Of a stretch of 64,000 nucleotides of DNA, positions 9,107 through 30,439 are shown piece after piece. The notes under the pieces are model-generated. The model had not been told where the DNA came from. It saw nothing but the letters and a program-made list of their open reading frames with translations, and made no database searches. The stretch is taken from the NCBI RefSeq assembly GCF_026004115.1, contig NZ_BPIM01000001.1:2398501-2462500 (forward strand). The letters run 5' to 3'. Source of the stretch: Meiothermus sp. GTDB taxonomy: Bacteria; Deinococcota; Deinococci; Deinococcales; Thermaceae. A program made the translations under genes and the position numbers. Position 1 is the first letter of the stretch. Each line of letters begins with the position of its first letter.

Positions 9107-10096
9107 TCAACGCTCTGCGGAGCGTTCGCTTTCGTGCTCGTGGAACTCGTAGGCCTTGATGATGCGGGCGACCAACGGGTGCCGCACCACGTCGGATTCC
9201 AAAAAGCGCTGCTGGGCAATCCCCTGGATGCCCTTGAGAATCCGCATGGCCTCTACCAGGCCGCTTTTTTGGGCTTTGGGCAGGTCAATCTGGGTGATGT
9301 CGCCGGTGATGACCACCCGGCTGTTGAAGCCCATTCGGGTAAGGAACATCTTCATCTGCTCTGGGGTGGTGTTTTGCGCCTCGTCGAGAATGATGAAGGC
9401 GTCGTTTAAGGTGCGCCCGCGCATGAAAGCCAGCGGGGCTACCTCAATCACCCCCGACTGGATGTACTGATCAAAACGCTCGGCGTCAATCATGTCGAAG
9501 ATGGCGTCGTATAGCGGGCGTAAGTAGGGGTCAATTTTGGCCTGTAGGTCGCCGGGCAAAAAACCCAGACGCTCCCCGGCCTCTACGGCAGGGCGGGTCA
9601 GGATGATGCGCTTGATTTTCTTGGCTTTCAGGAAGGCCACGGCCATGGCGACAGCCAGGTAGGTTTTGCCGGTTCCGGCAGGGCCGATGCCAAAGGTGAT
9701 GTCGTGGGTGCTAATGGCCTCCACGTACTGCCGCTGCCCCGGCGTTTTGGGCTTGAGCCTTCCGGGTAGGGTGAGCTCGTTGCCAAGGGTAGGTGTGGCC
9801 GTCTCGACGGGTAGCGACTGCCCATTTTCGGCGACCAGAATGACCTGCTCGAGGGTTCCCGCATCTATATCGGCTCCCTGGCGAACCAGGGTGACCAGAT
9901 CCCGCATCACCCGCTCGGCCAGCCGCACCTCGTCGGGGTTGCCCGAAATTTGTACTTCCTGCCCGCGCACGACCAGCTGCGCCGGTAGGAGCTTGCGCAG
10001 GGTTTTAAGATTTTTGTCACCATGGCCGAGCAAGGCCAGGGCTTCTTGCGGTGAGCGTAGGGGGACTATCGTTTTAGTTTGCGTACTCTTCTCCAA
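9107..10096 (-). CDS. PhoH-like ATPase
   Basis: 329 residues. N-terminal KH-like segment (about 20-90, LRKLLPAQLVVRGQEVQISG), then the PhoH domain with Walker A GPAGTGKTYLAV and Walker B FIILDEAQN. PhoH2-type proteins are RNA-dependent ATPases; linkage to ybeY suggests an RNA-processing role. The start is TTG at 10094-10096, supported by AGGAG six bases upstream; it overlaps the preceding gene by 31 bases. Confidence 0.92.
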   Translation of the reverse strand: MEKSTQTKTIVPLRSPQEALALLGHGDKNLKTLRKLLPAQLVVRGQEVQISGNPDEVRLAERVMRDLVTLVRQGADIDAGTLEQVILVAENGQSLPVETATPTLGNELTLPGRLKPKTPGQRQYVEAISTHDITFGIGPAGTGKTYLAVAMAVAFLKAKKIKRIILTRPAVEAGERLGFLPGDLQAKIDPYLRPLYDAIFDMIDAERFDQYIQSGVIEVAPLAFMRGRTLNDAFIILDEAQNTTPEQMKMFLTRMGFNSRVVITGDITQIDLPKAQKSGLVEAMRILKGIQGIAQQRFLESDVVRHPLVARIIKAYEFHEHESERSAER

Positions 10097-10626
10097 TATT
10101 GGCTCCTGGGTTCAGCCAGCACCTGATGCCAAACCACACCGTTCAGAATAGCATGGGGGGTGGTCGAAAACGTCCACTGCGCTGTGGGTTCGGTCTTGGG
10201 TTTGGCGGCTGGCGGGGTTGACCTTGCTGGGGCCGGCCGAGCGGGCTCTTGGGCTGGACGAGACCCTGTGCGGGCCAGGCGCTCGCGCTCGATCTCCTCG
10301 AGGGTCTTGGGGCGCTGACCCGCCGGTGCTTTGGGCCTGGGTGGCTGGGAAGGCGGGCTGACCAGAGGCCTTGGGGTTGGGGCGCTGCTGGTTGGGGGGG
10401 GTGCGGGAGCCGCTCCGGGGGCGGGTGGACGTGCAGGTGTACTCGACTGGGGGGGCTGGGCCTGTCGAGGCTGCGCCGGTGGACGACGCTCTTCCCCTGG
10501 CAAGGGAATTTCATCGGGCTCAAAATCGGGTGGCATCTGCCGGCCCCGCCGCAGCAAGCCCTGCAAAGCGGGCAGCACGATAAAGAAAAATAAGAACAAC
10601 AGACCTAAGAGATCATCTAAACCCAT
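10066..10626 (-). CDS. Proline-rich single-span membrane protein, unknown
   Basis: 186 residues from ATG at 10624-10626, which has GGAGGG four bases upstream. An N-terminal hydrophobic segment (LLGLLFLFFFIVLPALQGLL, about residues 6-25) is followed by a long Pro/Ala/Arg-rich, probably disordered stretch (about 50-145) and a short basic, aromatic C-terminus ending in YWRRVRKLKR. No catalytic motif. The final 31 bases overlap the start of phoH, so the two are probably translationally coupled. Function unknown. Confidence 0.75.
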   Translation of the reverse strand: MGLDDLLGLLFLFFFIVLPALQGLLRRGRQMPPDFEPDEIPLPGEERRPPAQPRQAQPPQSSTPARPPAPGAAPAPPPTSSAPTPRPLVSPPSQPPRPKAPAGQRPKTLEEIERERLARTGSRPAQEPARPAPARSTPPAAKPKTEPTAQWTFSTTPHAILNGVVWHQVLAEPRSQYWRRVRKLKR

Positions 10627-25558: not shown

Positions 25559-26476
25559 ATGCCCAAACATGTAGTAAGCATTTCCATCGGTTCCTCCAAG
25601 CGCAACTCCAGGGCCGAAATCCATGTGGAGAGCCTGGGTGAGACCTTTGTGCTCGAGCGCATCGGCACCGATGGGAGCTGGGAAAAGGCCATTGAACTGG
25701 TTAGGGAACTCGACGGCAAGGTGGATGCGTTTGGCCTGGGAGGAGCCGACCTGTATGTATACGCCGGCAGCCGCCGCTACACCTTCCGCGATGCCCAGCG
25801 CATGGCCGATGCGGCCCGCAAAACCCCCATGCTGGACGGCTCGGGGCTCAAACACACCCTCGAGCGCAATGCGGTAAGGCTGCTCGAGCCCGAGATGGGC
25901 TGGAAGAGCAAGAAGGTGCTTATTCCCAGCGCGGTAGATCGCTTTGGGTTGGCCGAGGCGCTCGATGAGGCGGGGGCCAGGGCGCTATACGGCGACCTGA
26001 TTTTTGGGCTGGGGCTACCCATTCCTCTCTATCGGCTGTCGCTGCTGCAAAAAATTGCCTATATTCTGCTCCCCATCATCACCCAACTGCCCTTCCAGTG
26101 GCTGTACCCCACCGGCGAAAAACAGGAAAAGCAGGTGAAGGACTGGCGGCAGCGCTATTTTGAGTGGGCCGATGTGATTGCGGGCGACTGGCACTTCATG
26201 CGCCGCTTCATGCCCGAGCATATGCAGGGCAAGATTATCCTGACCAACACCACCACCCCCGACGACCTCGAGTTCATGCGAACCCGGGGCGTGGCCCGGC
26301 TGATCACCACCACCCCCCGCCTGGATGGCCGCAGCTTTGGCACCAACGTGATGGAGGCTTTTATTGTGGCGGTGGCGGGGAAGCATCCTTTGAGCGAGGC
26401 CGATTATCTGGATTATATCGCCAAGCTCAACCTGCAGCCCGAGATCACGGAATTACAGCCCAAAGCCCAAAGCTAA
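25559..26476 (+). CDS. Quinate 5-dehydrogenase-like protein
   Basis: 305 residues resembling proteins commonly annotated as quinate 5-dehydrogenase in Thermaceae and Firmicutes. Signature-like stretches: VVSISIGSSKRNSRAEIHVE at the N-terminus, GTDGSWEKAIELVRELDGKVDAFGLGG, and TTTPRLDGRSFGTNVMEAFIVAV near the C-terminus. I see no classical Rossmann GxGxxG, so the assigned reaction is doubtful and this may be an uncharacterised family. A helix-rich hydrophobic stretch (about 160-180) could be membrane-associated. TAGACT (25546-25551) lies seven bases before the ATG: leaderless type. Confidence 0.6.
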   Translation: MPKHVVSISIGSSKRNSRAEIHVESLGETFVLERIGTDGSWEKAIELVRELDGKVDAFGLGGADLYVYAGSRRYTFRDAQRMADAARKTPMLDGSGLKHTLERNAVRLLEPEMGWKSKKVLIPSAVDRFGLAEALDEAGARALYGDLIFGLGLPIPLYRLSLLQKIAYILLPIITQLPFQWLYPTGEKQEKQVKDWRQRYFEWADVIAGDWHFMRRFMPEHMQGKIILTNTTTPDDLEFMRTRGVARLITTTPRLDGRSFGTNVMEAFIVAVAGKHPLSEADYLDYIAKLNLQPEITELQPKAQS

Positions 26477-26512: not shown

Positions 26513-29500
26513 CTACTCCTGTCCGGCGGTGAGTTTTTGGATGTAGGCGGCAAAGCCTTTCTCGTCGCCTTTGGCCAGATAGGCGGCTTGTTTGGCCCAG
26601 GTGGAGAGGCTTGGGGCAAAGCGCAGATTGGCGGCGGCCAGGGCGGCGCTCAGGGTTTCTGGTTGGGCCTTGGCAAGCTGGGCAAAGGTGGTAATGCCTG
26701 CCGCTTGCAGGGCTGCCGACATTTTGGGCCCGATGCCTTTGATGCGGGTCAGGTCGTCAGGAGAGGGTTTGGCTGGGGAACTCCTGGCTTTGCTGACCGA
26801 TGAAGCCGGGCCTTTGGTTTTGGGCTTTTCGGCTTTGGCGGCCCTGGCTCTGAACGAACCTTTCGAGGTTTGCGTCTCCGGTGTAGCCGTTTTTGTAGGG
26901 GTATAAGAAGCACTTCTGGCGGAAGCCTTTCGAGGTTCTTTGGTTTTCGCGGCTGCAGAAGCTGCAGGCTTGCCAGAGGCTCGAGCTCTTGTGCGCTCCG
27001 TAGCCTCGCGAGGGGTAGCCCTGGCCTTGCGCGGGGTGGCTTTCCTGGGCGCAATTCGCGCCAGGTATTGATCGACCACATAACCAGACGACTCGGCGGC
27101 CTTGTCTAGTTTTGCGACCAGGGCCGCCCAGGCTTTGCGCTCCTTCTTGACCTGAGTGGGGGTCTCACCCTCGGAAGTGGCCAATGTCAAGGACATCTGG
27201 CTCAGCCCCTTGAGCCAGGCTTGATGGGCCTCTCGGTTGAAGTACACTGCGCCGTCGAAACGGTTGACCTTCAAAAAGCCCTGCACCTCTGGGTCTTGGA
27301 ACAGACCATCCATCTGCCGATTCAACAGCACTGGGTTTTGCGCCAGCTCGGGATGAGCCAAGAGTAGCCTGACCAGGCCCACCGCGCGCCGCGCATCTGC
27401 TTCGCCCAGGCCCAGCTCGGCCAGGGTTTGCTCCAGAACACGTCCGAGGCGCCACTCGTCGAGGTGGGCGCGGCTCTCTTCGGCCTTGCCCAGCCCGTGG
27501 GTGAAAACCCAGCCCAGCAGGGCACCGCTCACGATCAGGTCACTCCGCTCCACTACCTTTAGCGCCCCTTCCAGGCGACCCAGCACTTGCTGCACTGGCA
27601 ACAGGGCGGGTTTGCTGCTCAGATGCTGGTCAATGCCCCGGTACAGCGCCAGCAGCCTGCCTTGCACTTCTTCCTGCAGGGCCTCGTCCAGTGTGCTGTC
27701 GCCTTCCAACAGCTTGCGGAACAGGGTAGGGTTCACCAGCTCGCGGAAGGGCCGCAGGATGGGCTCGAGCCAGAGTTCCTGCCGGGCTTCGTCCAGGCTG
27801 GGGACGCCTTGCCCGCCCAGCATCTGGGCCAGCCGGGCGTAGGTGCCGTCCTGGTCGTAGACCTCGCGCCAGTCCAGAAACACCTTGCGCTGGTAGGGGC
27901 CGAGCTCGAGGTAGAGCCCCTCCTCGTGCAGTTCCTGGTTGTTGCGAATGAACTCGAGGCCCGTAACCCGGTCGCGGAAAATGCTGAAGGTGCGCCGGTC
28001 AAAGCTCAGTTGCAGCCCCTCCCCCAGGCCCACCTGTCGGGTTTCGCGCCCCTGAGGGGTCTTGAAAGGCTGACCCACCGAGCGCCGCACCCAGACCGAG
28101 ACATGGGTGTTTTTGTTGTGGTAGGCCACCAGCGCCCGTTCGCTACCGGCCCGGTTCGAGTAGACAAACACATCCTCGTTGACGGCCTCCCCAGCCAGCG
28201 CGTCATAGAGCACAAAGTTCTCCACTTCGGCAAATAGGTAGCGCTTCTTGAGCAGGGGAAAGATTTGCTGGTAGTGGTAATCCACCAGACCCTGGTCGGG
28301 GGTCTCGTCGTAGTAGGCCCGGCGATACTCCATTCCGTAGCGCTCGGTAAAGCCCTCCACCTGCCCGTGGCCGAGCATGGGCAAGCCCGGTAGGGTGGCG
28401 CATAGGGTCATGACTCCAAAATACTTATCGCCCTTGCCGAACTGTTCTACGGCGGTTTTTTCGTCGGGGTTGTTCAGGAAGTTCACAAAGCGCTTCAGGA
28501 TTTCCGGTTCGAACTCGAGGGTGTTTTTCATGATCTGCCGGTACTCGGCGTTTTTCTCGTCGCGCAGCATGTTCATGAAGGCCGAGTTGTAGACCCGGTG
28601 CATCCCCAGGGTACGCACGAAGTAGCCTTCCATCATCCAGAAGGCTTCGGCCAGAAGCAGGGTGTCGGGTGCCTCTTGGGCAACCCGATCCACCACCTCG
28701 CGCCAGAACTCCACCGGCATAGCGGCATCGAACTGCTCTTTGGTCATGGCGTGCTCGGCCCGACTCGGAATGGAGGCCCCCCAGGGCGAGCCGCCCGGCT
28801 CCGGCCACCACAGCCGCTGGATGTGGCGCTTGGCCAGGGTCATGGCGGCGTCGAAGCGGATGATGGGAAACTGCCGGGCCACGTGCAGTATGGTCTGGAT
28901 TACCGCCTCGCGCACCTCGGGGTTGAGGTAGTTGAGCTGGGCCGTGTCGTTCCAGGGCATGGCGGTGCCGTCGTTGCCGTGATAAATGTAATGAACCTCG
29001 CCTGTGTGCCTATCTACCCGCTTGAACACCACCGCCGCGTCGGATTTATCGTAGTAGTGGTCTTCCAGGAAGATGCTCACCCGCGCATCCTCCGATAAAT
29101 CCGGCCCATTAAAGGTGTAATTTGGGTAAGGGGGATAGGAGAGACTGATAAACCAGTTGGGGTGCTCTATAACCCAGCGCCCATCAATCCCCACATGGTT
29201 GGGCACCATGTCCGAGGCCAGGCGGATGCCGCGCCGGGTGGCTTTTTGTCGCAGTATCTCGACTGCTGCCTCGCCGCCCAGATCCTTTGCAATCACATAG
29301 TCGTAGAGCGAGTAGGCCGAGGCCACTGCGTCGGGGTTGCCCATCATCTGCTTGATGCGTTTGGAAGCCTTGCTGCGCTCCCACAGCCCAATCAGCCACA
29401 GCCCGGTCACGCCCCAGCTTTGCAGGAGCTCGAGCTCTTCCTCGGGAATCTGGTCGAGGGTGGCGATCTCGCGGCGGTATTTTTTAGAGAGCTGATCCAG

Positions 29501-30439
29501 CCAGACAAAGACGTTTTTGGCAATCAGCACGCAGCGGGGCATCCAGTCCAGGTCGGCGCTAAAGGCTTCGGGCTCAGGTTCTAGAGCTAGCCGCCGTATA
29601 TCCAGCAGCTCGCTTTCTCCACCCCCACCCCCCGGCTGGTCGAAGTGGATGGGCACCGCAAACGAGCGCCCCTCCTCGCGAACCACATCCAGGCCAACGA
29701 GCATCCGGTAGTAGAAGCGCCCCAGGCTGCCCGCAAAGCGCTTCAGTAAGAACTGAAGCTGGGCCTCGAGGGAGTCGGGGTGCTGCAGGGCCGGCAGCCG
29801 CAGGGTTTTGAACAGGGAGAGGCCGGTTTCGCCGAAGGGCGGTTGGCCCTCGAAGAAGGTTTCCAGGCTCTGGATGATGGACAGGTAGGCGGTGGTGCGC
29901 TCGAGGTTGCCGTCCTCGAATAACTCGCTAAAGGGGCTGAAGGCCGGGTTGGCATTGGCCATCCAGAGCATGAGCATCTCTTCCAGCAGAATCTCGCGGT
30001 TGGAGCGGCCCTCAGTGGTATCCAAAAGGTACTCTTCCAAGGTGATCTCGCCCCGGTAGACCCGGATGGGCGGAAACTCGGTAGCAAACGAGCGCAGGGC
30101 TTTTTCCAACTCGTCCGGGCCGACGCTCTTTTCCAACACAGAAAGGGCTTGCTGCAGCACACCTGGATGCTGCTCCAGATATTGCCGCACCACAAAGTGC
30201 AGCATCTCGTCAATCAGGCCCATGGCATTAATCTGGCTGGCGCTCACGGCCTGCTCCGGGTGGCGCACCAGGTCGCGCTTGGCGTTCATGGCCTCGGCAA
30301 AGCGCCGTGCGGCCTGGAAGCTGGCGAAGATTACGTTTCCACTCAGCGAAAACAGCGAGAGGTCGAACTGGTAATAATCCCGTGCACTTTTGGATACGTG
30401 AAACTCGAGAGCACCGCGGCCTGGCCGATTGCAGCTCAT
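26513..30439 (-). CDS. GH13-family protein fused to a basic linker and helix-hairpin-helix
   Basis: 1308 residues in one uninterrupted frame. About 1-290 is an all-helical domain of unknown type. A GH13 (alpha-amylase superfamily) barrel follows (about 300-760): DMVPNHVG, the nucleophile Asp530 in IIRFDAAM, acid/base Glu598 in LLLAEAFW, Asp659 in NFLNNPDEKT and GLPMLGHGQVEG. About 780-1125 is another helical region. About 1130-1227 is low complexity, Lys/Arg/Ala/Pro/Thr-rich, histone-H1-like. Residues 1228-1308 hold TRIKGIGPKMSAALQAAGIT, a helix-hairpin-helix of the kind found in DNA-binding or L21-extension domains. ATG has GGAGGG five to six bases upstream. Probably acts on alpha-glucans; the role of the basic tail is unknown. 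Confidence 0.85.
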   Translation of the reverse strand: MSCNRPGRGALEFHVSKSARDYYQFDLSLFSLSGNVIFASFQAARRFAEAMNAKRDLVRHPEQAVSASQINAMGLIDEMLHFVVRQYLEQHPGVLQQALSVLEKSVGPDELEKALRSFATEFPPIRVYRGEITLEEYLLDTTEGRSNREILLEEMLMLWMANANPAFSPFSELFEDGNLERTTAYLSIIQSLETFFEGQPPFGETGLSLFKTLRLPALQHPDSLEAQLQFLLKRFAGSLGRFYYRMLVGLDVVREEGRSFAVPIHFDQPGGGGGESELLDIRRLALEPEPEAFSADLDWMPRCVLIAKNVFVWLDQLSKKYRREIATLDQIPEEELELLQSWGVTGLWLIGLWERSKASKRIKQMMGNPDAVASAYSLYDYVIAKDLGGEAAVEILRQKATRRGIRLASDMVPNHVGIDGRWVIEHPNWFISLSYPPYPNYTFNGPDLSEDARVSIFLEDHYYDKSDAAVVFKRVDRHTGEVHYIYHGNDGTAMPWNDTAQLNYLNPEVREAVIQTILHVARQFPIIRFDAAMTLAKRHIQRLWWPEPGGSPWGASIPSRAEHAMTKEQFDAAMPVEFWREVVDRVAQEAPDTLLLAEAFWMMEGYFVRTLGMHRVYNSAFMNMLRDEKNAEYRQIMKNTLEFEPEILKRFVNFLNNPDEKTAVEQFGKGDKYFGVMTLCATLPGLPMLGHGQVEGFTERYGMEYRRAYYDETPDQGLVDYHYQQIFPLLKKRYLFAEVENFVLYDALAGEAVNEDVFVYSNRAGSERALVAYHNKNTHVSVWVRRSVGQPFKTPQGRETRQVGLGEGLQLSFDRRTFSIFRDRVTGLEFIRNNQELHEEGLYLELGPYQRKVFLDWREVYDQDGTYARLAQMLGGQGVPSLDEARQELWLEPILRPFRELVNPTLFRKLLEGDSTLDEALQEEVQGRLLALYRGIDQHLSSKPALLPVQQVLGRLEGALKVVERSDLIVSGALLGWVFTHGLGKAEESRAHLDEWRLGRVLEQTLAELGLGEADARRAVGLVRLLLAHPELAQNPVLLNRQMDGLFQDPEVQGFLKVNRFDGAVYFNREAHQAWLKGLSQMSLTLATSEGETPTQVKKERKAWAALVAKLDKAAESSGYVVDQYLARIAPRKATPRKARATPREATERTRARASGKPAASAAAKTKEPRKASARSASYTPTKTATPETQTSKGSFRARAAKAEKPKTKGPASSVSKARSSPAKPSPDDLTRIKGIGPKMSAALQAAGITTFAQLAKAQPETLSAALAAANLRFAPSLSTWAKQAAYLAKGDEKGFAAYIQKLTAGQE

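Follow-up and report, generated by a model that had tools for sequence, protein, structure and literature searches.

Why should an enzyme of the α-amylase superfamily (GH13) end in a strongly basic linker and a helix-hairpin-helix (HhH) module? Within the window, the whole 64,000-nucleotide stretch of DNA from the hot-spring bacterium Meiothermus sp. that was analysed, an intact open reading frame of 1,308 codons runs on the minus strand from 30439 to 26513, with an ATG start and no internal stop. The fusion of GH13 enzyme, basic linker and HhH that an earlier note had described is present in this one uninterrupted frame.

Architecture of the GH13 enzyme

The N-terminal part of the protein is an all-helical domain (residues 13–290; 29570–30403, minus strand, as are the other features of this gene), which is conserved across the family and has no Pfam match. 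It is followed by the catalytic barrel (residues 300–738; 28226–29542), identified by PF00128, an AlphaFold2 model and Foldseek, by a β-sandwich-like C domain assigned from the secondary structure of the model (residues 739–862; 27854–28225), and by a helical C-terminal domain (residues 866–1125; 27065–27844). The core model, computed from a 32-sequence alignment, has a pLDDT of 82.7. Beyond the core lie the basic linker (residues 1126–1227; 26759–27064) and the HhH module (residues 1228–1308; 26516–26758). No signal-peptide-like stretch is visible on reading the N-terminus, in agreement with the earlier note.

The PF00128 match (residues 334–699, E = 3e-10) is weak, yet over the cut-off, and all 32 diverse family members match the same model. 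The triad of Asp530 (predicted nucleophile, in RFDAAM; 28850–28852), Glu598 (predicted acid/base, in LLAEAFW; 28646–28648) and Asp659 (predicted transition-state stabiliser; 28463–28465), with roles assigned by motif, is invariant both in these 32 homologues and in 14 Meiothermus-genus sequences, and is thus intact, as first proposed. The usual region IV of GH13 enzymes reads N-H-D, whereas here it reads N-P-D, with N657, P658 and D659 all invariant among the 32 homologues; the N-T-P-D of GlgE is a similar arrangement.

Foldseek searches with the core model returned many GH13 structures at E values of about 1e-10 to 1e-12 and 12–16% identity, none clearly nearest, and the matches to the nearest solved sequences (3dhu and 4gkl) are confined to the surroundings of region I. 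The barrel and catalytic triad are held in common with neopullulanase/TVAII, TreS and GlgE, to which the Meiothermus enzyme adds the N-terminal all-helical domain of 290 residues and the C-terminal helical domain of 260 residues. None of the NCBIfam equivalogs (for example, MalA, TreS, TreY and cyclomaltodextrinase) provides a functional name, the best α-amylase model reaching 30.6 bits where the cut-off is 875, and the GlgB model TIGR01515 is not among the matches listed for the protein; a name taken from NCBIfam was dropped, as its scores fall far below cut-off. The protein is probably a retaining enzyme of α-glucan metabolism, in a clade for which no close characterised relative was found and on which the open-access literature yielded no published work.

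Family distribution and glycogen gene neighbourhoods

A genome scan recovered at least 549 relatives, the best 80 of which were used in the analyses below. Those of the 80 that lie outside the genus are 43–65% identical in their best segment, with similarity spanning most of the core, and come mostly from metagenome-assembled genomes (MAGs) of Chloroflexota, Spirochaetes, Calditrichia, Acidobacteria, Bacteroidetes, Trueperaceae and other groups; no Thermus locus is among them. A short form of about 900 residues, found in Anaerolineae, lacks the C-terminal helical domain (L056, L057, L060, L063, L069, L074, L077 and L082), and seven of these eight short-form genes directly adjoin a divergent gene that belongs to a GAF/histidine-kinase cluster.

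Genes of glycogen and maltodextrin metabolism recur beside the family. Among the best 80 of at least 549 relatives, 21 spirochaete loci have a malQ-cluster (GH77) gene as the next one upstream, on the same strand and often overlapping or only a few bases away, with several 1-base overlaps as called by the ORF caller. A GH57/DUF3536 gene is immediately downstream and convergent in four Anaerolineales-type loci (L053, L058, L075 and L076). In a Thermoflexia MAG (L031), in which genes were named from sequence and the MalQ and GH57 clusters were identified by Pfam, the order is glgA-glgC-[GH13]-MNT/HEPN-like pair-GH57-malQ; the small nucleotidyltransferase/HEPN-like pair lies within this glycogen operon at 9439–10169. 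These neighbourhoods give good support to the earlier view of a glucan-active cytoplasmic enzyme, and the protein therefore probably acts in the cytoplasm in α-glucan or glycogen metabolism, its substrate being deduced from this context.

The genome that contains the window encodes GlgA and MalQ, but no GlgB was found among its eight PF00128 stretches, and it is one of 16 of the 18 Meiothermus-genus genomes that lack a GH57 branching enzyme. As GlgA is present and no branching enzyme is recognisable, the GH13 protein is a candidate for the branching step. Across genomes, a GlgB over the TIGR01515 cut-off occurs in 0 of 19 family-carrying genomes versus 4 of 14 controls, a difference that is a lead and not proof, given incomplete MAGs and a strict cut-off. 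A broader proposal is that the family is an α-glucan branching enzyme or transferase that replaces GlgB in Chloroflexota, Spirochaetes and Meiothermus, with tails that would tether nascent glycogen to the nucleoid for a PhaF-like segregation of granules. It can draw on the gene content of this genome and on the place of the L031 gene between glgC and GH57/malQ, and we regard it as quite unlikely.

Two other genes were recorded alongside these. The plus strand of the window encodes, at 25559–26476, a 305-residue protein that matches nothing in Pfam or NCBIfam; in most Meiothermus loci its gene and the GH13 gene converge. Two Anaerolineae/Chloroflexi MAGs (L051 and L066) have a homologue with 47% identity at a distance of about 2.7 kb from their GH13 gene, an arrangement that suggests co-transfer or a functional link. 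Elsewhere in the same genome (G000:C1:3187688–3188774, minus strand), a neopullulanase-like gene is split into frames of 393 and 156 residues and is likely frameshifted.

Conservation of the linker and HhH module

The core and the HhH module are kept together in all 18 Meiothermus-genus genomes searched. The earlier note had asked whether orthologues keep the tail, and had held that relatives ending before the linker, together with stops or frameshifts within it, would mark the fusion as a local accident; the fusion came through this check, is old, and an accidental local origin is ruled out by its presence throughout the genus. In M. hypogaeus (L024, 6001–9911) a frameshift near residue 345 breaks the orthologue into two ORFs, the result of either a draft error or recent pseudogene formation.

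The two parts of the C-terminus evolve differently. In eight pairs of sequences, the HhH has dN of 0.05–0.12 and dS of 0.17–0.49, dN being far smaller than dS each time, and is under purifying selection in the genus. The linker, of which 87% is K, R, A, P, S or T and which has a net charge of +22 here (the HhH has +3), has dN of about 0.04–0.64 and dS of 0.15–1.21, giving a dN/dS of about 0.4–1.1 in most pairs, close to relaxed. Its length ranges from 10 to 115 residues among orthologues and its net charge from +4 to +26, positive in 16 of the 16 sequences measured. In three Meiothermus-genus genomes (L016, L017 and L018) the linker is just 10–12 residues long and the HhH is retained, so that the module is independent of the linker.

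In a tree of 77 cores, from which tail columns were excluded, the HhH label needs one change, a single origin. Its bearers form a single branch of Meiothermus/Thermaceae and a Deinococcales MAG, adjoining two sequences, one from Chloroflexota and one from a bacterial MAG. Trueperaceae are placed elsewhere on the tree, which suggests that the history of the family includes lateral transfer.

Candidate partners of the C-terminus

The HhH assignment is based on matches to HHH_5 (E = 1e-6; 29.4 bits against a cut-off of 27) and DUF4332 at residues 1228–1272, within which an h-G-h-G hairpin with a conserved GIGP is found; additional helices with a W..QA.yL pattern follow. AlphaFold2 predicts a five-helix module (pLDDT 80). 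As no Foldseek match to this model reached E = 0.001, the ligand is not readable from the fold; the best, non-significant matches were N-terminal domains of RadA and the AR2 domain of NusA, and these weak matches to a predicted structure span both DNA-binding and protein-binding relatives. Profile searches returned the C-terminal modules of the reaction-centre O chain and a complex I subunit, followed by DNA polymerase IV. The long form of the module is also present on the phasin PhaH, NuoE, ribosomal protein L21 and the photosynthetic reaction-centre chain, in each case as a low-complexity linker followed by a DDLxxIxGIGP...W..QA module; the host proteins differ and none is a carbohydrate enzyme. 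NCBIfam tail matches to NuoE, PhaH and L21 lie far below cut-off and were rejected as orthology, since they reflect the shared low complexity and HhH.

The only other HhH copy detected in this genome belongs to a membrane-anchored coiled-coil protein of 790 residues (G000:C1:1806337–1808700; L002 and L104), with a hydrophobic N-terminus and two C-terminal HhH modules, the last of which shares 55% identity with the GH13 tail; its gene adjoins that of a repeat-domain protein. Divergent C-terminal HhH modules also occur on the GH57 branching enzymes of two congeners (L103:513–2468 in G002, and L106 in G008), which are the only two of the Meiothermus-genus genomes with such an enzyme. GH57 glycogen branching enzymes belong to a catalytic family unrelated to that of the GH13 protein. 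The solved TT1467 GH57 enzyme of T. thermophilus (520 residues) aligns up to residue 531 of 652 of the tailed enzyme, and therefore does not have the HhH tail. The branching enzyme of Thermococcus kodakarensis reportedly carries two C-terminal HhH motifs that are dispensable for activity. A search of the open-access literature found no GH13 or GH57 enzyme described with an HhH.

With the module on proteins that have no DNA role, on the coiled-coil protein and on GH57 enzymes, protein binding is at least as plausible as nucleic-acid binding for the HhH itself. The earlier note had offered a tether to DNA or RNA, or a protein-binding HhH, and its premise of a conserved fusion stands, whereas its nucleic-acid reading is weakened by the 10–12-residue linkers and by these hosts. 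A serious rival, therefore, is that the HhH is a docking domain that gathers α-glucan enzymes or anchors them to the membrane coiled-coil protein, with the linker as a flexible spacer. The constraint on the HhH beside the free length of the linker would fit such docking, as would the NusA AR2 domain listed by Foldseek, at a weak E value, in a complex with SuhB. However, a spacer role leaves unexplained the basic tails of distant members that have no HhH, and the linker charge is uniformly positive; we consider the docking explanation possible, but less likely than not.

The basic tails are recurrent across the family. Strongly basic C-termini rich in K, R, A, P, S and T were found in 18 of 81 family ORFs (drawn from the best 80 of at least 549 relatives) and in none of 447 proteins, each 200 residues or longer, encoded nearby on the same contigs (Fisher's exact test, 4e-16, a value that overstates independence because family members are related). 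Under a slightly different window rule with thresholds of +5 to +10, the counts were 16–26 of 81 and 0–2 of 447. Histone-H1-like tails occur in 22 of 69 members other than the HhH-bearing lineage, on both full-length (about 1,200 residues) and short (about 900 residues) forms, and the basic label needs 13 changes on the 77-core tree, 12 of them forced by supported branches. As 47 of the 77 members have no basic tail, the core works without one. The notion of a near-neutral, disordered tail that has no specific ligand and serves, for example, solubility or thermal stability is hard to reconcile with this enrichment, and with the universal presence and purifying selection of the HhH in the genus. 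We therefore judge that notion unlikely, although the dN of the linker is high for its dS, its length ranges from 10 to 115 residues, many relatives lack it, and slippage may readily produce tails rich in K, A and P. Targeting to nucleic acid proper, in which the enzyme would work at DNA or RNA, perhaps as a regulator, with glycogen chemistry secondary, is very improbable: the HhH and cationic tail look like nucleic-acid binders and the RadA domains head the non-significant fold matches, but the neighbours are glycogen and maltodextrin genes, not nucleic-acid genes, and most relatives have no such module.

The repeated evolution of basic tails suggests that inside the cell DNA or another partner holds the enzyme in place, and perhaps its glycogen with it. 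Our preferred reading, held tentatively and at somewhat short of even confidence, is a cytoplasmic retaining GH13 α-glucan enzyme whose C-terminus is a localisation module. The disordered cationic tail would bind by electrostatic attraction to a polyanion, for which nucleoid DNA is the likeliest candidate and polyphosphate or RNA are possible ones, and in the Meiothermus lineage the HhH would supplement or supplant this contact by recognising DNA or a protein partner specifically. With the glucan held by the catalytic part and a cell structure by the tail, the enzyme, and perhaps glycogen granules, would be positioned.

To our knowledge, the positioning and sharing of glycogen at bacterial cell division are poorly understood in comparison with PHA and polyphosphate granules, and a family of glucan enzymes in which PhaF-like tails have arisen again and again would be a direct candidate for this role. 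The clade is large and strongly conserved, has glycogen genes as neighbours in several phyla, and may fill a missing branching step.

The closest functional precedents are the histone-H1-like proteins PhaF and AlgP of Pseudomonas. The disordered KPAA-rich tail of PhaF binds DNA non-specifically and positions PHA granules (PMC3574117), and the KPAA tail of AlgP is required for the spacing of polyphosphate granules (PMC9239181). The term 'histone-like' given to the Meiothermus linker in the earlier note thus has a functional counterpart, although it describes composition only, and likewise the Lys/Ala/Pro-rich basic C-terminal tail is common to the three proteins by composition and charge, with no claim of homology. 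PhaF and AlgP are helical proteins without enzymatic activity, associated with PHA or polyphosphate, whereas here the tail is borne by a GH13 enzyme and, in Meiothermus, is followed by an HhH module.
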